Assembly: GCA_020740485.1 (NCBI GenBank)
Contig: DYMN01000006.1
Location: 27,840-91,839 of the forward strand
DNA: 64,000 nt
Source: Polaribacter sp.
GTDB taxonomy: Bacteria > Bacteroidota > Bacteroidia > Flavobacteriales > Flavobacteriaceae
Direction of reading: 5' to 3'
A program made the position numbers and the translations under genes. The notes under the pieces were generated by a model. The model searched no databases. It had not been told where the DNA came from and saw nothing but the letters and a program-made list of their open reading frames with translations. Below are positions 14,634-52,936 of the stretch, in pieces; the first letter of the stretch is position 1, and every line of letters starts with the position of its first letter.

Positions 14634-14704
14634 GGCACTTTGGCCGAGTGGTCAGGCAGAGGTCTGCAAAACCTTGTACAGCGGTTCGAATCCGCTAGGT
14701 GCCT
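14634..14704 (+). tRNA. tRNA-Cys (anticodon GCA)
   Basis: GGCACTTTGGCCGAGTGGTCAGGCAGAGGTCTGCAAAACCTTGTACAGCGGTTCGAATCCGCTAGGTGCCT. Confidence 0.95.
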
Positions 14705-14711
14705 CTGAAAG

Positions 14712-14749
14712 AAAACCATCATTCAACGAAGTTGTTTGATGGTTTTTTG
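14712..14749 (+). terminator. terminator of tRNA-Cys
   Basis: AAAACCATCA-TTCAACgaaGTTGTT-TGATGGTTTTTT. Confidence 0.75.
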
Positions 14750-14887
14750 TTTTTCATCAAAGATTTTTATTTATTTGCTCAATAATTTAACAAAAAAAAT
14801 GAAATGAGCATAACAAAAAGTTGATACCAACCGAAAATGATTATGCGAATTCCATCTGACCTTTAAAAAACAATTAAACATAAGCGG

Positions 14888-17347
14888 ATGAAAGTATTAA
14901 AATTTGGTGGAACATCGGTAAGCTCTCAAATATCACTACAAAATCTCGTAAAAATTGTAAAAACAGAATACGCTATTGATAATGAATTGATTGTAGTGTG
15001 TTCTGCGCTTTCCGGGATTACCAATTTATTGCAAAAAATGGCAATAGATGCCTCTTTACAACAAAATTACACTATTGATTTAAAAGAAGTTGAATCGATT
15101 CACATCCAACTGATAAAAGAAGTGTTACCCATTCATTTTCAAAATGAAGTACTTATTCATCATAAACTATTACTCAATGAATTAGAAAATATTTTGGAAA
15201 GTGTGTCCTATTTGAGAGAAATATCTCCCAAAACGAACGACCGAATTATTTCTTTTGGTGAAAAATGGAGTAATCAAATTGTATACAATCTTCTCAAAGA
15301 AAATATAGACCCTATCATCTCCGTTAATACGAAAACTTTAATCAAGACGGACTCCAACTTTGGAAATGCACAAATAGATTTTGAACTCACTGAAAAAATC
15401 GTTCAAGATTGGTATCAAACCCTTAAAAATCAAAAACCCGTAGTAATAGCTACCGGATTTATTGCGTCTGACATCTCAGGAAATACTACCACTTTAGGAA
15501 GAGGAGGTAGTGATTACACAGCTTCTGTTTTGGGGGCCTTACTCAACGCATCTGAAATTCAAATTTGGACCGATGTCAACGGCTTTATGACCGCCGACCC
15601 AAAATGGGTTTCCAATGCTAAAAGTTTGCCTTTTTTGAGCTATGCAGAAGCGATGGAACTTTCCTATTTCGGGGCTAAAGTCATTTACCCACCCACGATG
15701 ATTCCGGTTATCAATAAGCAAATCCCCATTTTAATCAAAAACACTTTAAATCCTGAATTTATCGGAACTACAATACATAATTCCACTGAAAAGGGAAATT
15801 CTATGGCTAAAGGAATTGCTTCTGTTAATGACTTAGCTTTGATAAACATTGAGGGAAATGGATTAATTGGGTTTAAAGGTTTCGACGGTAGACTTTTTAC
15901 TGCATTGGCTAACCACGATGTTAATATTATTATGGTTACCCAAGCCGGCTCTGAACACAGCATCAGTTTTGCGTTAAGTCCCCAAGACGCCGAAAAAGCA
16001 AAAAAAATTATTTTAAAAGAGTTTAAATATGAATTTTTGATTAATAAAATTGAAAAAGTCAGTATAGAAAAAGACGTGAGTATAGTGGCGGTAGTAGGAG
16101 AAAACATGAAACACCGTAAAGGAATTGCAGGCAAAGTGTTTCACGCTTTAGGCAAAGCAGGGGTCAATATCATCGCTATTGCTCAAGGTTCATCTGAATT
16201 GAATATTTCGATGATTATAAAAAAAGAAACGCTCAAAAAAGCAATCAATGCTATCCACAATGATTTGTTTCTATCTGACATAAAAAATGCGCATCTATTC
16301 GTTGCAGGCATCGGGAATATTGGAGGAGAACTACTAAAACAATTGGACCAACAAAACACCAAATTAGCAACTAATCACAATTTACAACTCAATTTAATCG
16401 GGATTGCCAACTCTAAAAAAACCTTTATTGATATAAGTGATTTGCAATTTAAAAATTACAGAGAAAAATTAACTCAAAAAGGGGCAAAAATTTCTTTTGA
16501 TACCATATTGGAAAATCTAAAAAATACGCATTTACCTAATTTGATCTTTGTGGATAATACGGCAGATGCAAGTTTAGCTTTTTACTATAAAAAATTTTTA
16601 GAAAACAATATATCAGTGGTAACTTGCAATAAAATAGCTACCTCAAGTCAGCAATCAGAATATGATGAATTAAAGAAAATTACATTAGAAAAAAATATCA
16701 GTTTTCTCTACGAAACCAATGTGGGCGCCGGATTGCCTATCATCAAGACAATTCAAGATTTGATTGCCAGCGGCGATGAAATCATTAAAGTTGAAGCCAT
16801 TTTAAGTGGCACACTTTCTTATATTTTCAATCAATATTCCAAAGAAAAAACCTTTGCACAGGTTGTAAAAGATGCTCAAGAAAAGGGTTACACTGAGCCC
16901 AATCCGGTTGACGATTTATCTGGCAAAGATTTTGCGCGCAAAATGTTGATTTTAGCACGTGAATCAGGGGTAAAAATGGAAATGGACGAAATTGAAATAG
17001 AACCTATTTTACCGGAAGTAGCCTTAAAAGCCTCCAATTTAAAAGAATTCTATCAAAGCCTTGAACATAACGAAACGCTGTTTGCACATCAAAGAGATAA
17101 AGCTTTTGAAAACAAACAATTCCTGAGATATATGGGAACGTTTGAAAATGGGAAAGTGAAATTAGCAATCAAAGCAGTCGATCAAAATCATCCATTCTAC
17201 GGACTCACGGGAAGTGATAATATTATCGCCATTACCACAAATAGGTATTTAAACAATCCGCTTGTAGTAAAAGGACCCGGAGCCGGAGCTTGCGTTACAG
17301 CAGCCGGTGTTTTTGCCGATATTATGAGTGCCGCTAACCTGTTTTAA
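14888..17347 (+). CDS. thrA: bifunctional aspartate kinase/homoserine dehydrogenase I
   Basis: 819 aa; MKVLKFGGTSVS, TLGRGGSDYTASVLGA, ACT domains, C-terminal homoserine dehydrogenase (TNVGAGLPIIKTIQDL). Confidence 0.97.
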   Translation: MKVLKFGGTSVSSQISLQNLVKIVKTEYAIDNELIVVCSALSGITNLLQKMAIDASLQQNYTIDLKEVESIHIQLIKEVLPIHFQNEVLIHHKLLLNELENILESVSYLREISPKTNDRIISFGEKWSNQIVYNLLKENIDPIISVNTKTLIKTDSNFGNAQIDFELTEKIVQDWYQTLKNQKPVVIATGFIASDISGNTTTLGRGGSDYTASVLGALLNASEIQIWTDVNGFMTADPKWVSNAKSLPFLSYAEAMELSYFGAKVIYPPTMIPVINKQIPILIKNTLNPEFIGTTIHNSTEKGNSMAKGIASVNDLALINIEGNGLIGFKGFDGRLFTALANHDVNIIMVTQAGSEHSISFALSPQDAEKAKKIILKEFKYEFLINKIEKVSIEKDVSIVAVVGENMKHRKGIAGKVFHALGKAGVNIIAIAQGSSELNISMIIKKETLKKAINAIHNDLFLSDIKNAHLFVAGIGNIGGELLKQLDQQNTKLATNHNLQLNLIGIANSKKTFIDISDLQFKNYREKLTQKGAKISFDTILENLKNTHLPNLIFVDNTADASLAFYYKKFLENNISVVTCNKIATSSQQSEYDELKKITLEKNISFLYETNVGAGLPIIKTIQDLIASGDEIIKVEAILSGTLSYIFNQYSKEKTFAQVVKDAQEKGYTEPNPVDDLSGKDFARKMLILARESGVKMEMDEIEIEPILPEVALKASNLKEFYQSLEHNETLFAHQRDKAFENKQFLRYMGTFENGKVKLAIKAVDQNHPFYGLTGSDNIIAITTNRYLNNPLVVKGPGAGACVTAAGVFADIMSAANLF

Positions 17348-45489: not shown

Positions 45490-45646
45490 TATACAAAGAT
45501 ATGGAAGTTTTGAAAACTTAATTTGGTTTAAAAAATTTACAAAAAAGCTCTATTAGAGTACTTTTATAAAGCATCGATTACAAAAAAACAAAAAAAAATT
45601 TCTTTTTTAAAAAATAATTGTATTATTGCACCATAAATATTCAAAA

Positions 45647-45694
45647 GTGAAATTATCTCAACTACATCATCACCATTTTCATACTTGCGTTTAG
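45647..45694 (+). CDS. his operon leader peptide VKLSQLHHHHFHTCV (GTG start)
   Basis: GTG AAA TTA TCT CAA CTA CAT CAT CAC CAT TTT CAT ACT TGC GTT TAG; five His in six codons, upstream of a terminator and hisG. Confidence 0.88.
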   Translation: MKLSQLHHHHFHTCV

Positions 45695-45728
45695 GCGAGG
45701 AGGAAGTGATATGTAAAAATATATTAAT

Positions 45729-45762
45729 AACCCGTCTGAACTAAAATCAGACGGGTTTTTCT
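45729..45762 (+). terminator. his attenuator terminator
   Basis: AACCCGTCTGA-actaaaa-TCAGACGGGTT plus T tract, between leader ORF and hisG. Confidence 0.88.
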
Positions 45763-45798
45763 TTGTACTGATTTTAGTTTGGTTTAAATTTAAAAATA

Positions 45799-46656
45799 AT
45801 GACTAAAATCAAAATTGCCATCCAAAAAAGTGGCAGATTAAGCGAAAAATCCATTGAATTACTGAATGAGTGTGGCATTAATTTTTCTAATTCTGACCGA
45901 AAATTAAAAGCCGAAGCCAAAAATTTTCCTGCCGAAATCCTGTTTTTAAGAGACGACGATATTCCGCAATATGTAGAGCGCGGTGTTGCGGATTTGGGTA
46001 TTATTGGGGAAAATGAAGTGTGGGAAAAAGATAAAAACGTAAACACAATCGATGCTTTGGGCTTTGCTAACTGCAGGCTCTCTCTCGCGATTCCGAAAGA
46101 TGAAAATTTTGATTCTATCGCTTACTTTCAAAACAAAAAGATAGCCACGAGCTATCCCAAAATTTTAGAGACTTATTTTAAGGAAAATAAAATCAAGGTA
46201 GAGATAGAAGAAATAGGCGGCAGTGTGGAAATTGCAACCAGCATAGGTTTAGCCGATGGTATTTTTGATATAGTGAGTACCGGAAGTACTTTGCTTACCA
46301 ACGGATTGAAAGAAGTGCAAGTAGTAAAAAAATGTCAAGCGGTACTGATTGCCAACAAATTTTTAAATTCGGAAAAAACCGACTTAGTCAATCAATTGTT
46401 GTTTAGATTCAAAACTGTTCGGGATGGCAAAGACCGTAAATACATTTTATTAAACGCTCCTAATACTGCCATTTCCGATATTGTAAAAATCCTACCGGGC
46501 ATGAAATCACCTACGGTTTTGCCATTAGTAGAAACGGGTTGGAGCAGCATACATTCTGTGGTCAAAGACAATGAATTTTGGGATATTGTAGATCAACTCA
46601 AGGCTTTGGGCGCCGAAGGTATTTTGGTAACGCCAATTGAAAAAATAGTTTTGTGA
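45799..46656 (+). CDS. hisG: ATP phosphoribosyltransferase
   Basis: 285 aa; KIAIQKSGRLSEKS; GIFDIVSTGSTL; C-terminal regulatory domain. Confidence 0.96.
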   Translation: MTKIKIAIQKSGRLSEKSIELLNECGINFSNSDRKLKAEAKNFPAEILFLRDDDIPQYVERGVADLGIIGENEVWEKDKNVNTIDALGFANCRLSLAIPKDENFDSIAYFQNKKIATSYPKILETYFKENKIKVEIEEIGGSVEIATSIGLADGIFDIVSTGSTLLTNGLKEVQVVKKCQAVLIANKFLNSEKTDLVNQLLFRFKTVRDGKDRKYILLNAPNTAISDIVKILPGMKSPTVLPLVETGWSSIHSVVKDNEFWDIVDQLKALGAEGILVTPIEKIVL

Positions 46657-46695
46657 TGTTTGGCAAATCTTAAAAATTCAACAAAATTTAAACGT

Positions 46696-47994
46696 ATGAA
46701 AACCTATAAAAATCCGGATAAAACCTCTTGGGATCTTCTATGTAAAAGACCTCAATTAAAAAGTGATGACTTAACACAATTAGTTCAAACGGTTTTTACC
46801 CAAGTAAAAAAGGAAGGAGATAAAGCCCTCATTCGTTTTACTGAGCAATTTGACCGCGTAAAGCTAACTGCGTTGAAAGTTACAGAAGACGACTTAAATT
46901 CATCAGTTGCTTTTATTCCCGATAATCTCAAAGATGCGATTTTAACCGCTAAGACCAACATTGAGAAATTTCATAAAAATCAGTGGCAAGCAACTGAAAT
47001 TATAGAAACATCAATAGGCGTGAAATGTTGGAGGGAAAATAGGGCGATTGAAAAAGTGGGCATTTACATTCCCGGAGGTTCTGCTCCACTTTTTTCTACT
47101 ATCTTAATGTTGGGAATTCCGGCAAAAATAGCCGGTTGCGAAGAAATTGTGCTCTGTACACCACCCAATGCTTCCGGTGATATTGATCCGGTGATAAAAT
47201 ATGTAGCCCATTTGATAGGAATAACACAAGTATTCAAAGTAGGCGGCATTCAAGCCATAGCTGCTATGACATTCGGAACAGAGCTTATTCCTAAAGTCGA
47301 TAAAATTTTCGGTCCCGGCAATCAGTACGTTACTGCAGCTAAACAGTTTGCGTTGCAATACGGTGTAGCCATAGACCTACCGGCGGGACCCAGTGAGGTA
47401 TTGATCATTGCCGACCAAAATGCCAACCCTGTTTTTGTAGCAGCTGATTTGTTAGCCCAAGCTGAACACGGTGCGGACAGTCAGAGTATTTTACTTTCAA
47501 ACAGCTTAACTTTATTAGAACAAGTTGAAGAAGAAATAAAAAAACAAATTGTATCTTTATCACGCAAAGACATCCTCTCTAAGAGTTTGCAAAACTGCCG
47601 GCTTATCTATTTTGAATCACTATCCACTGGTTTTGAATTTAGTAATTCCTATGCTCCTGAACATTTGATTTTATCCATTGAAAATTTTGAAAAATATCTT
47701 TCTATAATAACCAATACCGGTTCTGTTTTTCTGGGAGCTTATACTCCGGAAAGTGCAGGCGATTACTTGTCCGGTACCAATCACACTTTGCCTACCAATG
47801 GTTATGCCCGTAATTATAGTGGTGTGTCTCTAGATAGTTTTGTAAAAAAAATTACCTTTCAAAATATTTCAAAGGAAGGTCTTATGAATATTGGAAATAA
47901 AATTGAAATAATGGCTGCCACTGAACAATTGACAGCGCACCAAATGTCAGTTACTTATCGTTTAAATTATCTTAAGAAAAATGTCAATCCATAA
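46696..47994 (+). CDS. hisD: histidinol dehydrogenase
   Basis: YIPGGSAPLFSTILMLGIPAKIAG; DLPAGPSEVLIIAD. ATG 46696 preferred. Confidence 0.96.
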   Translation: MKTYKNPDKTSWDLLCKRPQLKSDDLTQLVQTVFTQVKKEGDKALIRFTEQFDRVKLTALKVTEDDLNSSVAFIPDNLKDAILTAKTNIEKFHKNQWQATEIIETSIGVKCWRENRAIEKVGIYIPGGSAPLFSTILMLGIPAKIAGCEEIVLCTPPNASGDIDPVIKYVAHLIGITQVFKVGGIQAIAAMTFGTELIPKVDKIFGPGNQYVTAAKQFALQYGVAIDLPAGPSEVLIIADQNANPVFVAADLLAQAEHGADSQSILLSNSLTLLEQVEEEIKKQIVSLSRKDILSKSLQNCRLIYFESLSTGFEFSNSYAPEHLILSIENFEKYLSIITNTGSVFLGAYTPESAGDYLSGTNHTLPTNGYARNYSGVSLDSFVKKITFQNISKEGLMNIGNKIEIMAATEQLTAHQMSVTYRLNYLKKNVNP

Positions 47995-49015
47995 TTTAGT
48001 AAGAAAAAATATCCTCGAAATGCAATCGTATGCGTCAGCACGTAAAGAATTTGACGGGTCCGATGCCATATTCTTAGATGCCAATGAAAATCCCTTTGGC
48101 ATCTACAATCGTTATCCCGATCCATTTCAGATACCATTGAAACAAACGCTATCTGAGCTAAAAAACATCCCGATAGAACATATTTTTTTGGGTAATGGCA
48201 GCGACGAAATTCTCGATTTAATCGTGCGGGTTTTTTGCGAACCGCATCAAGATCAAATTATACAATGTCCGCCTACTTTTGGCATGTATGAAGTAGTGGC
48301 AGCACTCAATGCAGTGCCTTTGGTAAACATTCCACTCACCGAGTCTTTTCAATTGGATGTTGACCGAATTTTAGCCAACATCACTGAGCATAGTAAAATG
48401 ATTTTTTTATGTTCTCCCAACAATCCTTCCGGAAATGTGTTATTGGATATTCCTATAATATTGCAAAAATTCAAGGGAATAGTAATAGTAGACGAAGCTT
48501 ATATCGATTTTAGTGCGCAACCTTCTTTACTTTCCGAACTGAAAAACTACCCTAATCTGATTATCGTGCAAACCTTGAGTAAAGCTTGGGGTGCTGCCGG
48601 CTTGAGATTGGGAATGGCTTTTGCTTCGCCTGAGATAATCGCACTGCTCAACAAGGTAAAATATCCTTATAACATCAGTGCCGCCAATCAAAAAGCAGCC
48701 TTAGATATATTACAAAATAAAGTAGTTTTTCAAAATGATGTTGCAGTCCTCCTCGAGCAAAGAGATCGCGTAATTGAGAAACTAAACCAATTTCCTTTTA
48801 TAGTAAAAATCTATCCCACCGACGCTAACTTTGTCCTTGTGAAAGTAGAAAACGCAACCCAATTATACCAATTTCTCAAAGATCGAAATGTAATTGTGAG
48901 AAACAGAAGTAAGGCAGTAACCAATACTTTGAGAATAACCATAGGAAGCGAAGCCGAAAATACAGCACTGATAGAAAGTTTAGAACAATACAACCTAATA
49001 AAAACCACTCACTGA
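47981..49015 (+). CDS. hisC: histidinol-phosphate aminotransferase
   Basis: [39 protein letters not shown]; overlaps hisD. Confidence 0.96.
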
Positions 49016-50106
49016 TGAAAAAAGTATTATTTATTGACAGAGACGGTACCTTAATCCTAGAACCTCCAATTGATTTTCAAGTGGACAGCTTAGAAAAACT
49101 CGAATTTTATCCGGAAGTTTTTCAATTTCTTTCCCGTATATACAAAGAATTAGATTTTGAATTGGTCATGGTTTCCAATCAAGACGGATTGGGCACGGCG
49201 AGTTATCCTGAATCCGCTTTTGAATTAGTTCAAAACAAAGTAATCAAAGCCTTTGAAAACGAAGGAATATTTTTCTCAGAAGTCTTGATAGACCGTTCAT
49301 TTGAATATGAAAATCTTCCCACGCGCAAGCCCGGAATCGGGATGCTGAAAGGCTATCTCAACGGAATGTATGATCTTGAAAACTCCTATGTGATCGGCGA
49401 TAGAAAAACCGATGTCCTATTAGCACAAAACTTGGGTTGCAAGGCTATTTATCTCAATCAAATTCCCTTTGAAGACGCATTCACTACTACAAAGTGGTCG
49501 GAAATTTATCAATTTTTAAAACAAAAGCCCAGAACCGCTTCCGTAAGCCGAAAGACCAAAGAAACGGATATTCACATAGCACTCAATTTAGACGGTAGCG
49601 GACAGGCCCAAATCGACACAGGTATTAGTTTTTTTGACCATATGTTAGAACAAATCGCCAAACACGGACAATTGGATTTGAGCATCGATGTAAAAGGCGA
49701 CTTAGAAGTTGATGAACATCACAGCATTGAAGATACCGCCCTTGTGCTGGGACAGTGTTTTCGCGAAGCCTTAGGGAGTAAAAAAGGAATAGAACGTTAT
49801 GGCTTTTTATTACCTATGGACGATTGTTTGGCACAAGTGGCTCTAGATTTTGGTGGGAGACCTTGGTTAGAGTGGCAAGTCCACTTCAAGAGAGAAAAAA
49901 TTGGAGCTATGCCCACAGAGCTATTTAAACACTTTTTTAAATCGTTTACCGATACGGCAAAATGCAATTTAAACATCAAGGCAGAAGGCGAGAATGAACA
50001 TCACAAAGCGGAAGCTATATTCAAAGCCTTCGCTAAAGCAATAAAAATGGCTGTCCAAGTTTCAGATAAAAATTTCGGCGTTCAAAGCACAAAAGGGATG
50101 TTATAA
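49015..50106 (+). CDS. hisB: bifunctional histidinol-phosphatase/imidazoleglycerol-phosphate dehydratase
   Basis: N-terminal HAD (FIDRDGTL), C-terminal IGPD ([27 protein letters not shown]). Confidence 0.96.
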
Positions 50107-50128
50107 AAAAGTATTCAAGGTAAAAAAT

Positions 50129-50207
50129 GTAAATCGTGGTTTCAATACTCTATTTTTTAAGCACTTCGACAATTCAACAAACTCAGTACAGGCAAGCTCA
50201 ACCACCT
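50129..50207. repeat. intergenic palindromic repeat in the hisB-hisH gap
   Basis: Same ends as the thrA-thrB element: gtaaatcgtggttt (50129-50142) and caggcaagctcaaccacct (50189-50207). Confidence 0.65.
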
Positions 50208-50233
50208 AATTATAATCGTAAATCTAAAAAAAT

Positions 50234-50815
50234 ATGGTCGCAATTTTAAAATACAATGCCGGTAATATCACTTCGGTGCGTTATGCCCTTCAAAGATTGG
50301 GTTTTGACAGTATCATTACCGATGAACCTGAACATTTGGCAAGCGCCTCGCACGTTATTTTTCCCGGTGTGGGCGAAGCCGGTTCGGCGATGTCCTATCT
50401 GAAAGAACGAAAATTGGATGAAGTCATCAAAAACCTAAAACAGCCCGTGCTGGGTATTTGTTTGGGCTTACAATTACTGTGCACCCATTCGGAAGAAGCT
50501 GACACAATAGGCCTTAGTGTTTTTCCAACTATAGTTCGAAAGTTTCCTGATACAGACCTCGTGCCGCATATGGGATGGAATAATCTCACTGCTATTCACG
50601 GAAGTCTCTTAGAAGGCATTACCACCGCAGACAACTTTTATTTTGTACACAGCTTCTACGCTGAACCTTGCGAAAACACAGTAGGGTTTTGTGAATACAT
50701 TTTGCCATTCAGTGCCGTGTTGCAAAAAGATAATTTTTTTGCTACCCAATTTCACCCTGAAAAATCAGGAAGTGTGGGTGAAAAAATCCTTCTCAATTTT
50801 TTAAAAAATTCCTGA
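50234..50815 (+). CDS. hisH: imidazole glycerol phosphate synthase, glutamine amidotransferase subunit
   Basis: GICLGLQLLC nucleophile; TQFHPEKSG. Confidence 0.96.
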   Translation: MVAILKYNAGNITSVRYALQRLGFDSIITDEPEHLASASHVIFPGVGEAGSAMSYLKERKLDEVIKNLKQPVLGICLGLQLLCTHSEEADTIGLSVFPTIVRKFPDTDLVPHMGWNNLTAIHGSLLEGITTADNFYFVHSFYAEPCENTVGFCEYILPFSAVLQKDNFFATQFHPEKSGSVGEKILLNFLKNS

Positions 50816-50855
50816 TTTATAACAAAAGTATTTTACTAAAAAAACAAGAAATAAA

Positions 50856-51584
50856 ATGAATTTTAACATCATACCGGCTATTGATATCATTGAAGGAAAA
50901 TGCGTGCGGCTTACTAAGGGCGATTATTCCACCCGCAAGGTTTATTATGAAAACCCATTAGATGTGGCATTGAGTTTTCAAGAATATGGATTTAAAAGAT
51001 TGCATATTGTAGATTTAGACGGAGCGAAAGCTAAACACCTTGTAAACTATAAAGTAGTGGAACAAATTGCATCAAGAACCCATTTTGAAATGGAATTGGG
51101 TGGTGGCATTAAAACCAATGAAGATGTAAAAATCGCCTTTTTATCCGGTGTACATAAAATCATTGTCGGAAGTATTGCCGCAACAAACCCCGAGACTGTT
51201 GCACTTTGGTTAGCTGCTTATGGAAGCAACAAAATCATTTTAGGCGCTGATGTGCAAAACCGTAAAATAGCCATTCACGGTTGGGAAGAACTCACCGCTC
51301 TCGATCTCATTTCATTTGTGCAGTCTTATCAAAACAAGGGAATAAAAGAAGTGATTTGTACTGATATCAGTAAGGACGGGATGTTACAAGGACCGGCTTT
51401 TGCATTGTATGAAGAAATATTGACTCAAACCCAGGTACAATTGATAGCCAGCGGTGGAGTTTCAAGTATTGAAGATATTGAAAAATTAGAAAAAATGGGT
51501 TGTAGCAGTGTCATAGTAGGAAAAGCCATTTACGAAAACAAAATCAGTTTAAAAGACCTTAAAGCCTTCCAAGAAAAATGTTAA
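50856..51584 (+). CDS. hisA: ProFAR isomerase (HisA)
   Basis: IIPAIDIIEGKCVRLTKGDY; GGIKTNEDV. Confidence 0.96.
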   Translation: MNFNIIPAIDIIEGKCVRLTKGDYSTRKVYYENPLDVALSFQEYGFKRLHIVDLDGAKAKHLVNYKVVEQIASRTHFEMELGGGIKTNEDVKIAFLSGVHKIIVGSIAATNPETVALWLAAYGSNKIILGADVQNRKIAIHGWEELTALDLISFVQSYQNKGIKEVICTDISKDGMLQGPAFALYEEILTQTQVQLIASGGVSSIEDIEKLEKMGCSSVIVGKAIYENKISLKDLKAFQEKC

Positions 51585-52330
51585 AAAAAAGAATTATTCC
51601 CTGTCTCGATATTAAAGATGGGAGAACCGTAAAAGGAGTCAATTTTATTAATTTAAGAGATGCCGGGGACCCGATAGCATTGGCTAAATATTACTCGCAA
51701 CAAGGCGCTGATGAACTTGTTTTTTTAGACATCACTGCCAGCCACGAAAACCGCAAAACCTTACTTCACCTTGTAACGCAAATAGCCCAAAACATTAACA
51801 TTCCCTTTGCTGTGGGCGGGGGTATTACCAGTGTAGAAGATGCGCAAAGAGTAATCCAAGCCGGTGCTGACAAAGTGAGCATCAACTCGGCTGCCGTTAA
51901 AAATCCGAAATTAATCAAAGAAATAGCGGATGTATTGGGTAGTCAAAGCGTGATCGTAGCGATTGACATTAAGCAAGTAGAAAATCAATGGACGGTTTAT
52001 ATCAACGGAGGCAGAGTAGCAACCCATAAAGAAGCCGTGCATTGGGCACGAGAAGCGGAACAATTAGGAGCCGGAGAAATATTGCTCACTTCTATGAACC
52101 ACGACGGGTCAAAAAGCGGATTTGCTTATGATATTACAAACCTAATAGCACAAGCGGTTAATATTCCGGTCATTGCTTCAGGCGGAGCAGGCACGTATCA
52201 ACATTTTTCCAAATTATTTACAAATTCCAAAATAAGTGCAGCATTGGCAGCCGGAATTTTTCACGACAACGAAATACAGCTAACCGAACTTAAAAATTAT
52301 CTCCAACAAAATAATATTCCAATAAGATAA
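51578..52330 (+). CDS. hisF: imidazole glycerol phosphate synthase cyclase subunit
   Basis: RIIPCLDIKDGRTVKGVNFINLRDAGDP. Confidence 0.97.
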   Translation: MLKKRIIPCLDIKDGRTVKGVNFINLRDAGDPIALAKYYSQQGADELVFLDITASHENRKTLLHLVTQIAQNINIPFAVGGGITSVEDAQRVIQAGADKVSINSAAVKNPKLIKEIADVLGSQSVIVAIDIKQVENQWTVYINGGRVATHKEAVHWAREAEQLGAGEILLTSMNHDGSKSGFAYDITNLIAQAVNIPVIASGGAGTYQHFSKLFTNSKISAALAAGIFHDNEIQLTELKNYLQQNNIPIR

Positions 52331-52342
52331 CAATTTAAAAAA

Positions 52343-52936
52343 ATGGTAAAACTCGATTTTAACAAAAACAAAGACGGTCTAATTCCCGTCATTATCCAAG
52401 ACTACTACACCCTTCAGATTTTGATGTTGGGCTACATGAACGAAGAAGCATATCAAAAAACACTTGCAGAAAAAAGAGTGACGTTTTATTCTCGCAGCCG
52501 TCAAAAACTTTGGTTAAAAGGAGAAACTTCGGGGAACTTTCTCATTGTGAAAGAAATGATTAGTGACTGCGATGACGATAGTTTATTGATTAAAGCGGAA
52601 GCCATGGGACCTACTTGTCACTTGGGAAATACTTCGTGTTTTGACAAAAAAGAAGACAAAGGATTTTTGTATAAATTAGAAAAAATTATTAGACAACGCA
52701 TCGACGACAAAGTAGCAGAATCGTACACTAACAAACTCTTCAACAAAGGAATCAATAAAGTAGCCCAAAAAGTGGGAGAAGAAGCTGTGGAGCTGATTAT
52801 TGAAGCCAAAGATGACAATACGGACTTGTTTAAAAACGAAGCAGCAGATTTACTGTATCATTTTCTTATTCTATTGCGTGCCAAAAATTTAGAATTAGCC
52901 GACATCGAGGCTGTTTTGGAAACAAGAATGAAATAA
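52343..52936 (+). CDS. hisIE: bifunctional phosphoribosyl-AMP cyclohydrolase/phosphoribosyl-ATP pyrophosphatase
   Basis: HisI (MLGYMNEEAYQKT, SRSRQKLWLKGETSGN, CDDDSLL) fused to HisE (KVGEEAVELIIEAK). Confidence 0.95.
   Translation: MVKLDFNKNKDGLIPVIIQDYYTLQILMLGYMNEEAYQKTLAEKRVTFYSRSRQKLWLKGETSGNFLIVKEMISDCDDDSLLIKAEAMGPTCHLGNTSCFDKKEDKGFLYKLEKIIRQRIDDKVAESYTNKLFNKGINKVAQKVGEEAVELIIEAKDDNTDLFKNEAADLLYHFLILLRAKNLELADIEAVLETRMK

Follow-up and report, generated by a model that had tools for sequence, protein, structure and literature searches.

The hisG upstream region in the window, meaning the whole analysed stretch of 64,000 nucleotides from Polaribacter sp., contains the parts of a histidine attenuator. 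From its sequence and that of its relatives we are confident that this leader would act as a ribosome-mediated transcription attenuator of the his operon. Between its terminator and hisG lies element F, an apparently undescribed extra RNA strand in the window's own order, for which the terminator and the hisG start are alternative potential partners. The analysis provides an anatomy for a histidine attenuator that is apparently the rule in the class Bacteroidia, which lies outside the Rfam His_leader family and is scarcely covered in the accessible attenuation literature. It also corrects gene maps that omit leader peptides.

Leader peptide and terminator upstream of hisG

All parts of the region lie on the + strand. 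A promoter box of the Bacteroidota -7 type (TATTATTG, 45621-45628), with one mismatch to TANNTTTG, is located 26 nt upstream of the leader start. The leader ORF (45647-45694), identified by its sequence and conservation, starts with GTG, encodes VKLSQLHHHHFHTCV and ends with a TAG stop at 45692-45694; its regulatory codons, CAT CAT CAC CAT TTT CAT (45665-45682), include five His codons in six. Downstream of the leader, the terminator scan detected one site, AACCCGTCTGA-ACTAAAA-TCAGACGGGTT (45729-45757) followed by TTT, compared to 0.1 expected from shuffles. The hisG gene, encoding ATP phosphoribosyltransferase, spans 45799-46656 with its ATG at 45799, and is followed by hisD, hisC, hisB, hisH, hisA, hisF and hisIE (46660-52936; ORFs named by protein sequence and order). 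The initial annotation had placed the promoter-like box, the GTG leader, the terminator and hisG at these same coordinates, and its claim of a GTG-initiated VKLSQLHHHHFHTCV peptide with five His in six codons was confirmed.

The same annotation had named conservation of the His codons beforehand as a test by which attenuation could be refuted. This test was run, and the His codons turned out to be conserved across the class. Under a strict rule, a short ORF with at least four His in six codons, a leader was found in 226 of 288 Bacteroidia hisG upstream regions, compared to none in any of three shuffled sets. Dinucleotide shuffling of the window's upstream region produced no such ORF in 3000 shuffles. 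About a fifth of the loci failed the strict test, and with a looser rule (three His in six) a leader was present in 198 of 212 non-redundant loci. The usual leader in the window's family reads M-x-F-I-Q-L-H-H-H-H-F-H-T-C-T-Q-A-S/R. In the window, TAG stands at the position of the Gln codon of most relatives, and the peptide is therefore three codons shorter.

Leader and downstream terminator occurred together in 250 of 293 loci. Sorting the loci with both parts by their terminator arm yielded a CCGTYTGAG type with 183 loci, the window among them, a GGCTTACC type with 31 loci and other types with 36. In loci of the window's type, the box TANNTTTG was present in 98 of 182 compared to 8.8 expected, mostly 25-28 nt upstream of the leader start. 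The spacing of 26 nt in the window matches this conserved distance.

Antiterminator pairing and the attenuation model

Five segments can be distinguished between the leader and the end of the terminator. Segment A (45663-45673, from the fold) comprises the first His codons and pairs with segment B (GTGATATGTA, 45706-45715, from fold and duplex). Segment C (GTTTAGGCGAGG, 45689-45700), defined by its duplex with D and by covariation, is the antiterminator strand and extends across the leader stop codon. Segments D (45729-45739, from the terminator scan) and E (45747-45760) are the 5′ arm of the terminator and its 3′ arm with the T tract, respectively.

In the window, C pairs with D at 45731-45741 over 11 bp (-15.1 kcal/mol). 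This antiterminator pairing excludes the terminator and is both conserved and covarying in relatives. The C:D duplex was stronger than in shuffled sequences (p<=0.02) in 171 of 249 loci, and when own partners were compared to swapped ones the mean rank was 0.14. Across the 183 loci of the window's type, 95% of cells were paired and 67 cells were compensatory; at D+4, for instance, T-A was found in 89 loci and C-G in 55. The A:B duplex reached p<=0.02 in 114 of 249 relatives; on its own in the window it was not significant (p 0.15). In relatives, C extends from a median of 23 nt past the first His codon to the leader stop codon; in the window, it begins 24 nt past the first His codon. With a ribosome footprint of the generally known size, C would be left free by a ribosome stalled at the first His codons and covered by a ribosome at the stop, which is the textbook geometry of an attenuator.

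From these parts, their conservation and the covariation of C:D and of D with element F (see below), we infer ribosome stalling, a readthrough response and their timing. RNA polymerase would initiate shortly past the -7 box (45621-45628), and the His-rich leader would be translated by a ribosome. Under a shortage of charged His-tRNA, this ribosome would stall on the His run and leave C uncovered; free C would then pair with D, the D:E terminator would be blocked and the operon transcribed. With ample histidine, the ribosome would proceed to the TAG within C and cover it, so that D:E could form and transcription would stop. If the leader is not translated, A:B would trap C, which would lead to termination as well.

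It is very improbable that the leader ORF is untranslated and that the terminator is constitutive or merely insulates the operon from upstream transcription. The GTG start and the length of only 15 codons would fit such a reading, but the His run and the antiterminator are conserved across the class, and the promoter box is conserved just upstream of the leader. Ribosome-mediated attenuation also has counterparts in the same relatives, in which FFF-rich leaders precede pheA and WWW leaders precede trpE, each with a terminator. Leaders with a Phe-codon run were seen at pheA in L305, L308, L314, L321, L322 and L325, and WWW leaders at trpE in L330, L332, L336, L337, L339, L340, L342, L344, L348, L352 and L356. 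These Phe and Trp leaders suggest that leader-peptide attenuation is in general use in this family.

Element F and its pairing partners

Element F (CTGATTTTAGTT, 45768-45779) is located between the T tract and hisG and was defined by complementarity, conservation and covariation. It is the reverse complement of the apical half of the terminator; in the window, 45768-45779 and 45739-45750 match in 12/12 bp. F was present (p<=0.01) in 135 of 176 testable loci of the window's type, and none of the 21 testable GGCTTACC-type loci had it. The idea that F is a general feature of flavobacterial attenuators was rejected, as 0 of 12 testable pheA/trpE attenuators have it. The end of F lies a median of 15 nt upstream of the hisG ATG (IQR 14-17), and its distance to the T tract is less fixed (IQR 6-14 nt).

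Pairing of F with the terminator arm and loop (D/loop:F) gave a mean rank of 0.076 for own versus swapped partners. Because the positions of F were chosen by best fit, shuffled spacers served as a control: over the twelve columns, 93% of cells were paired compared to 70% with shuffled spacers. A total of 214 compensatory cells was observed, in both arm and loop. In the arm, D+4 is T-A in 76 loci and C-G in 42; in the loop, D+9 is T-A in 55, A-T in 34 and C-G in 24.

The second partner of F is the hisG start (segment S), with 45799-45811 as the alternative pairing region in the window. The terminator loop ACTAAAA (45740-45746) is the opening part of the 10-mer ACTAAAATCA, which is found at 45740-45749 and again in the hisG start at 45802-45811. 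Within F, TGATTTTAGT at 45769-45778 is a 10-bp complement of this second copy. Many loci have a terminator loop similar to the hisG start (TGAGTAAATC and ATGAGTAAATT), and F is then complementary to both. The window is altered at the loop, at F and at the start, yet their mutual relation is kept.

Among relatives, F:start pairing was significant (p<=0.01) in 45 of 116 loci, compared to 5 of 116 when codons 8-15 were used. In the testable loci of the window's type without F, the whole spacer was significant against the start in 0 of 31. An ATGAG start was found in 97 of 135 loci with F compared to 8 of 48 without F, and CTCA occurred in the F region of 88 of the 97 ATGAG-start loci compared to 12 of the 38 others. 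Among the 21 independent pairs on the HisG tree whose starts differ, CTCA shifts in the same sense in 15 and in the opposite sense in 1. The ATGAG and CTCA labels were picked after inspection of the data, so these counts are strong leads rather than a blind test. A one-nucleotide test of hisG codon 4 against F was dropped (p 0.02 overall, 0.43 within one loop type).

Complementarity to hisG alone was rejected as the explanation of F. As duplexes, D/loop:F was stronger than F:S in 115 of 116 loci, and the D/loop pairing holds where the start differs; in some loci (e.g. L025 and L062) F is kept without complementarity to the start. By energy, D:E ranks above D/loop:F, which in turn ranks above F:S, and a terminator-sensing strand would need this ranking. 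The D:F state is less stable than D:E by about 14 kcal/mol. On this ground, F was rejected as a simple stable cis alternative to the terminator, and D:F needs a kinetic window.

One reading of these pairings, to which we give somewhat less than an even chance, is that F adds a translational layer and passes the state of the terminator on to hisG translation. F would be made only in readthrough RNA and would there read the terminator state. Where D:E has formed, free F would pair with the hisG start region and lower the translation of leaky transcripts; where D and the loop are open, F would pair with them instead and the hisG start would be free. Because E precedes F in the transcript and is the tighter binder of D, formation of D:F would be a kinetic step, limited to the time in which C holds D. 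A more specific two-level form is tentative and we rate it slightly lower: F would sense the terminator hairpin through its start-mimicking arm and loop and would otherwise block the start, such that transcription and translation would both follow from a single histidine decision. For the window, the hisG start was predicted to be unpaired to a fraction of 0.60 when D is sequestered, compared to 0.29 when D:E has formed. Across relatives, the computed accessibility of the start increased by more than 0.1 in only 24 of 116 loci and decreased in 5. With D:E formed, shuffled spacers left the start more accessible than the real spacer did in 86 of 116 loci. If F acts as the covariation suggests, the terminator would double as a decoy of the start codon, a compact design.

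Other explanations accept attenuation and assign F differently. The most serious of these, which we nevertheless consider unlikely, is that F acts on the RNA and not on translation, with the D/loop:F structure at the 5′ end altering the processing or decay of the hisG message. The conservation of D/loop:F even where the hisG start mismatches F would suit such a role, whereas the position of F is fixed to the ATG more than to the T tract, and F tracks the sequence of the start codon. It is less probable still that the inverted repeat of D/loop and F has no function and is kept alike by mutation. Template-switch correction at quasi-palindromes yields matched changes without selection, and the two arms are close together. 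This mutational origin is countered by the constant spacing to the ATG, by the involvement of the hisG coding sequence and by the distribution of F, which is common in the window's type and was found in none of the testable loci of the GGCTTACC type or of pheA/trpE. We consider more improbable still a trans action of the terminated leader RNA, in which its terminator loop would pair with F on the hisG mRNA and lower translation. F does complement the loop and arm and adjoins the start codon, but every such mRNA carries the same hairpin in cis, and opening D:E costs more than D:F returns.

Relation to known attenuators and other leaders

Element F appears to be new, as no description of it was found in the literature searched. 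Vitreschak et al. are said to have mentioned candidate attenuators in Bacteroidetes/Chlorobi in 2004. The Rfam model RF00514 (His_leader) aligned to the window at 45667-45763 with 33.3 bits compared to a gathering score of 49, and this gathering score was reached by none of ten sources from the class, the window included. The his leader of E. coli and Salmonella shares with the window a run of His codons, an intrinsic terminator, a competing antiterminator, a position upstream of hisG and the same logic. In contrast to these leaders, the antiterminator described here overlaps the leader stop and forms its duplex with the terminator arm itself, and the terminator is followed by element F.

The attenuator belongs to a known kind and has already been reported in part. 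Our search for his attenuators in Bacteroidota yielded only one direct precedent: Guerin et al. (2021; PMC9723704) described a structured 5′ element upstream of hisG that is shared by Flavobacterium psychrophilum and other Flavobacteriaceae and had no Rfam match, and their transcriptome gave strong indications that leader-peptide attenuation operates ahead of amino-acid operons. Given the same gene, the same family and the lack of an Rfam match, this element is very probably the attenuator of the window; the main text of that study presents it without anatomy, antiterminator or element F. The attenuator reading of the initial annotation is supported, and what it had overlooked is the antiterminator over the leader stop, element F and this 2021 report.

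Elsewhere, the accessible text of Naville and Gautheret (2010; PMC2965389) contains no discussion of Bacteroidetes, and that of a 2022 study on histidine regulation (PMC9413887) names Proteobacteria and some Firmicutes as the groups with RNA attenuators. According to the available portions of both, the Firmicutes His leaders (PMC9413887; hisZ/hisS in bacilli, PMC2965389) resemble the window in their His runs, terminator and antiterminator, and in belonging to a phylum without RF00514 matches. They differ in phylum, and no element after the terminator is mentioned in these portions. Translational attenuators that sequester the ribosome-binding site, as covered in the accessible part of PMC9413887, resemble the way in which F would act on the hisG start; in those, the structure replaces the terminator, whereas F would here be added to one.

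A His leader that ends in HHSS and is followed by GGAGGAAT, with no terminator, was seen in several Cytophagales-like loci. In nine of them (L086, L094, L149, L150, L153, L160, L173, L176 and L196), ..HHFHHSS-like leader ends are followed by GGAGGAAT-like sequence, and no intrinsic terminator was found upstream of hisG in these nine. These leaders are perhaps translational His attenuators. In L210-L213, hisG starts with GTG or TTG and is preceded by a His/Arg-rich leader (e.g. MKITRTYHHCFHHRHCGDR) with no clear terminator.

In the thr operon of the window (thrA-like gene from 14889), no obvious leader peptide or attenuator was seen by eye in 14700-14890. A hairpin at about 14716-14749, upstream of the thrA-like gene, directly follows a tRNA gene. 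The HisG protein of the window shares 66-71% identity with proteins of other orders (e.g. Proteiniphilum, L109-L114) but only about 50-56% with most members of its own family. It is possible, judging from such comparisons, that the his operon of the window was acquired by horizontal transfer.
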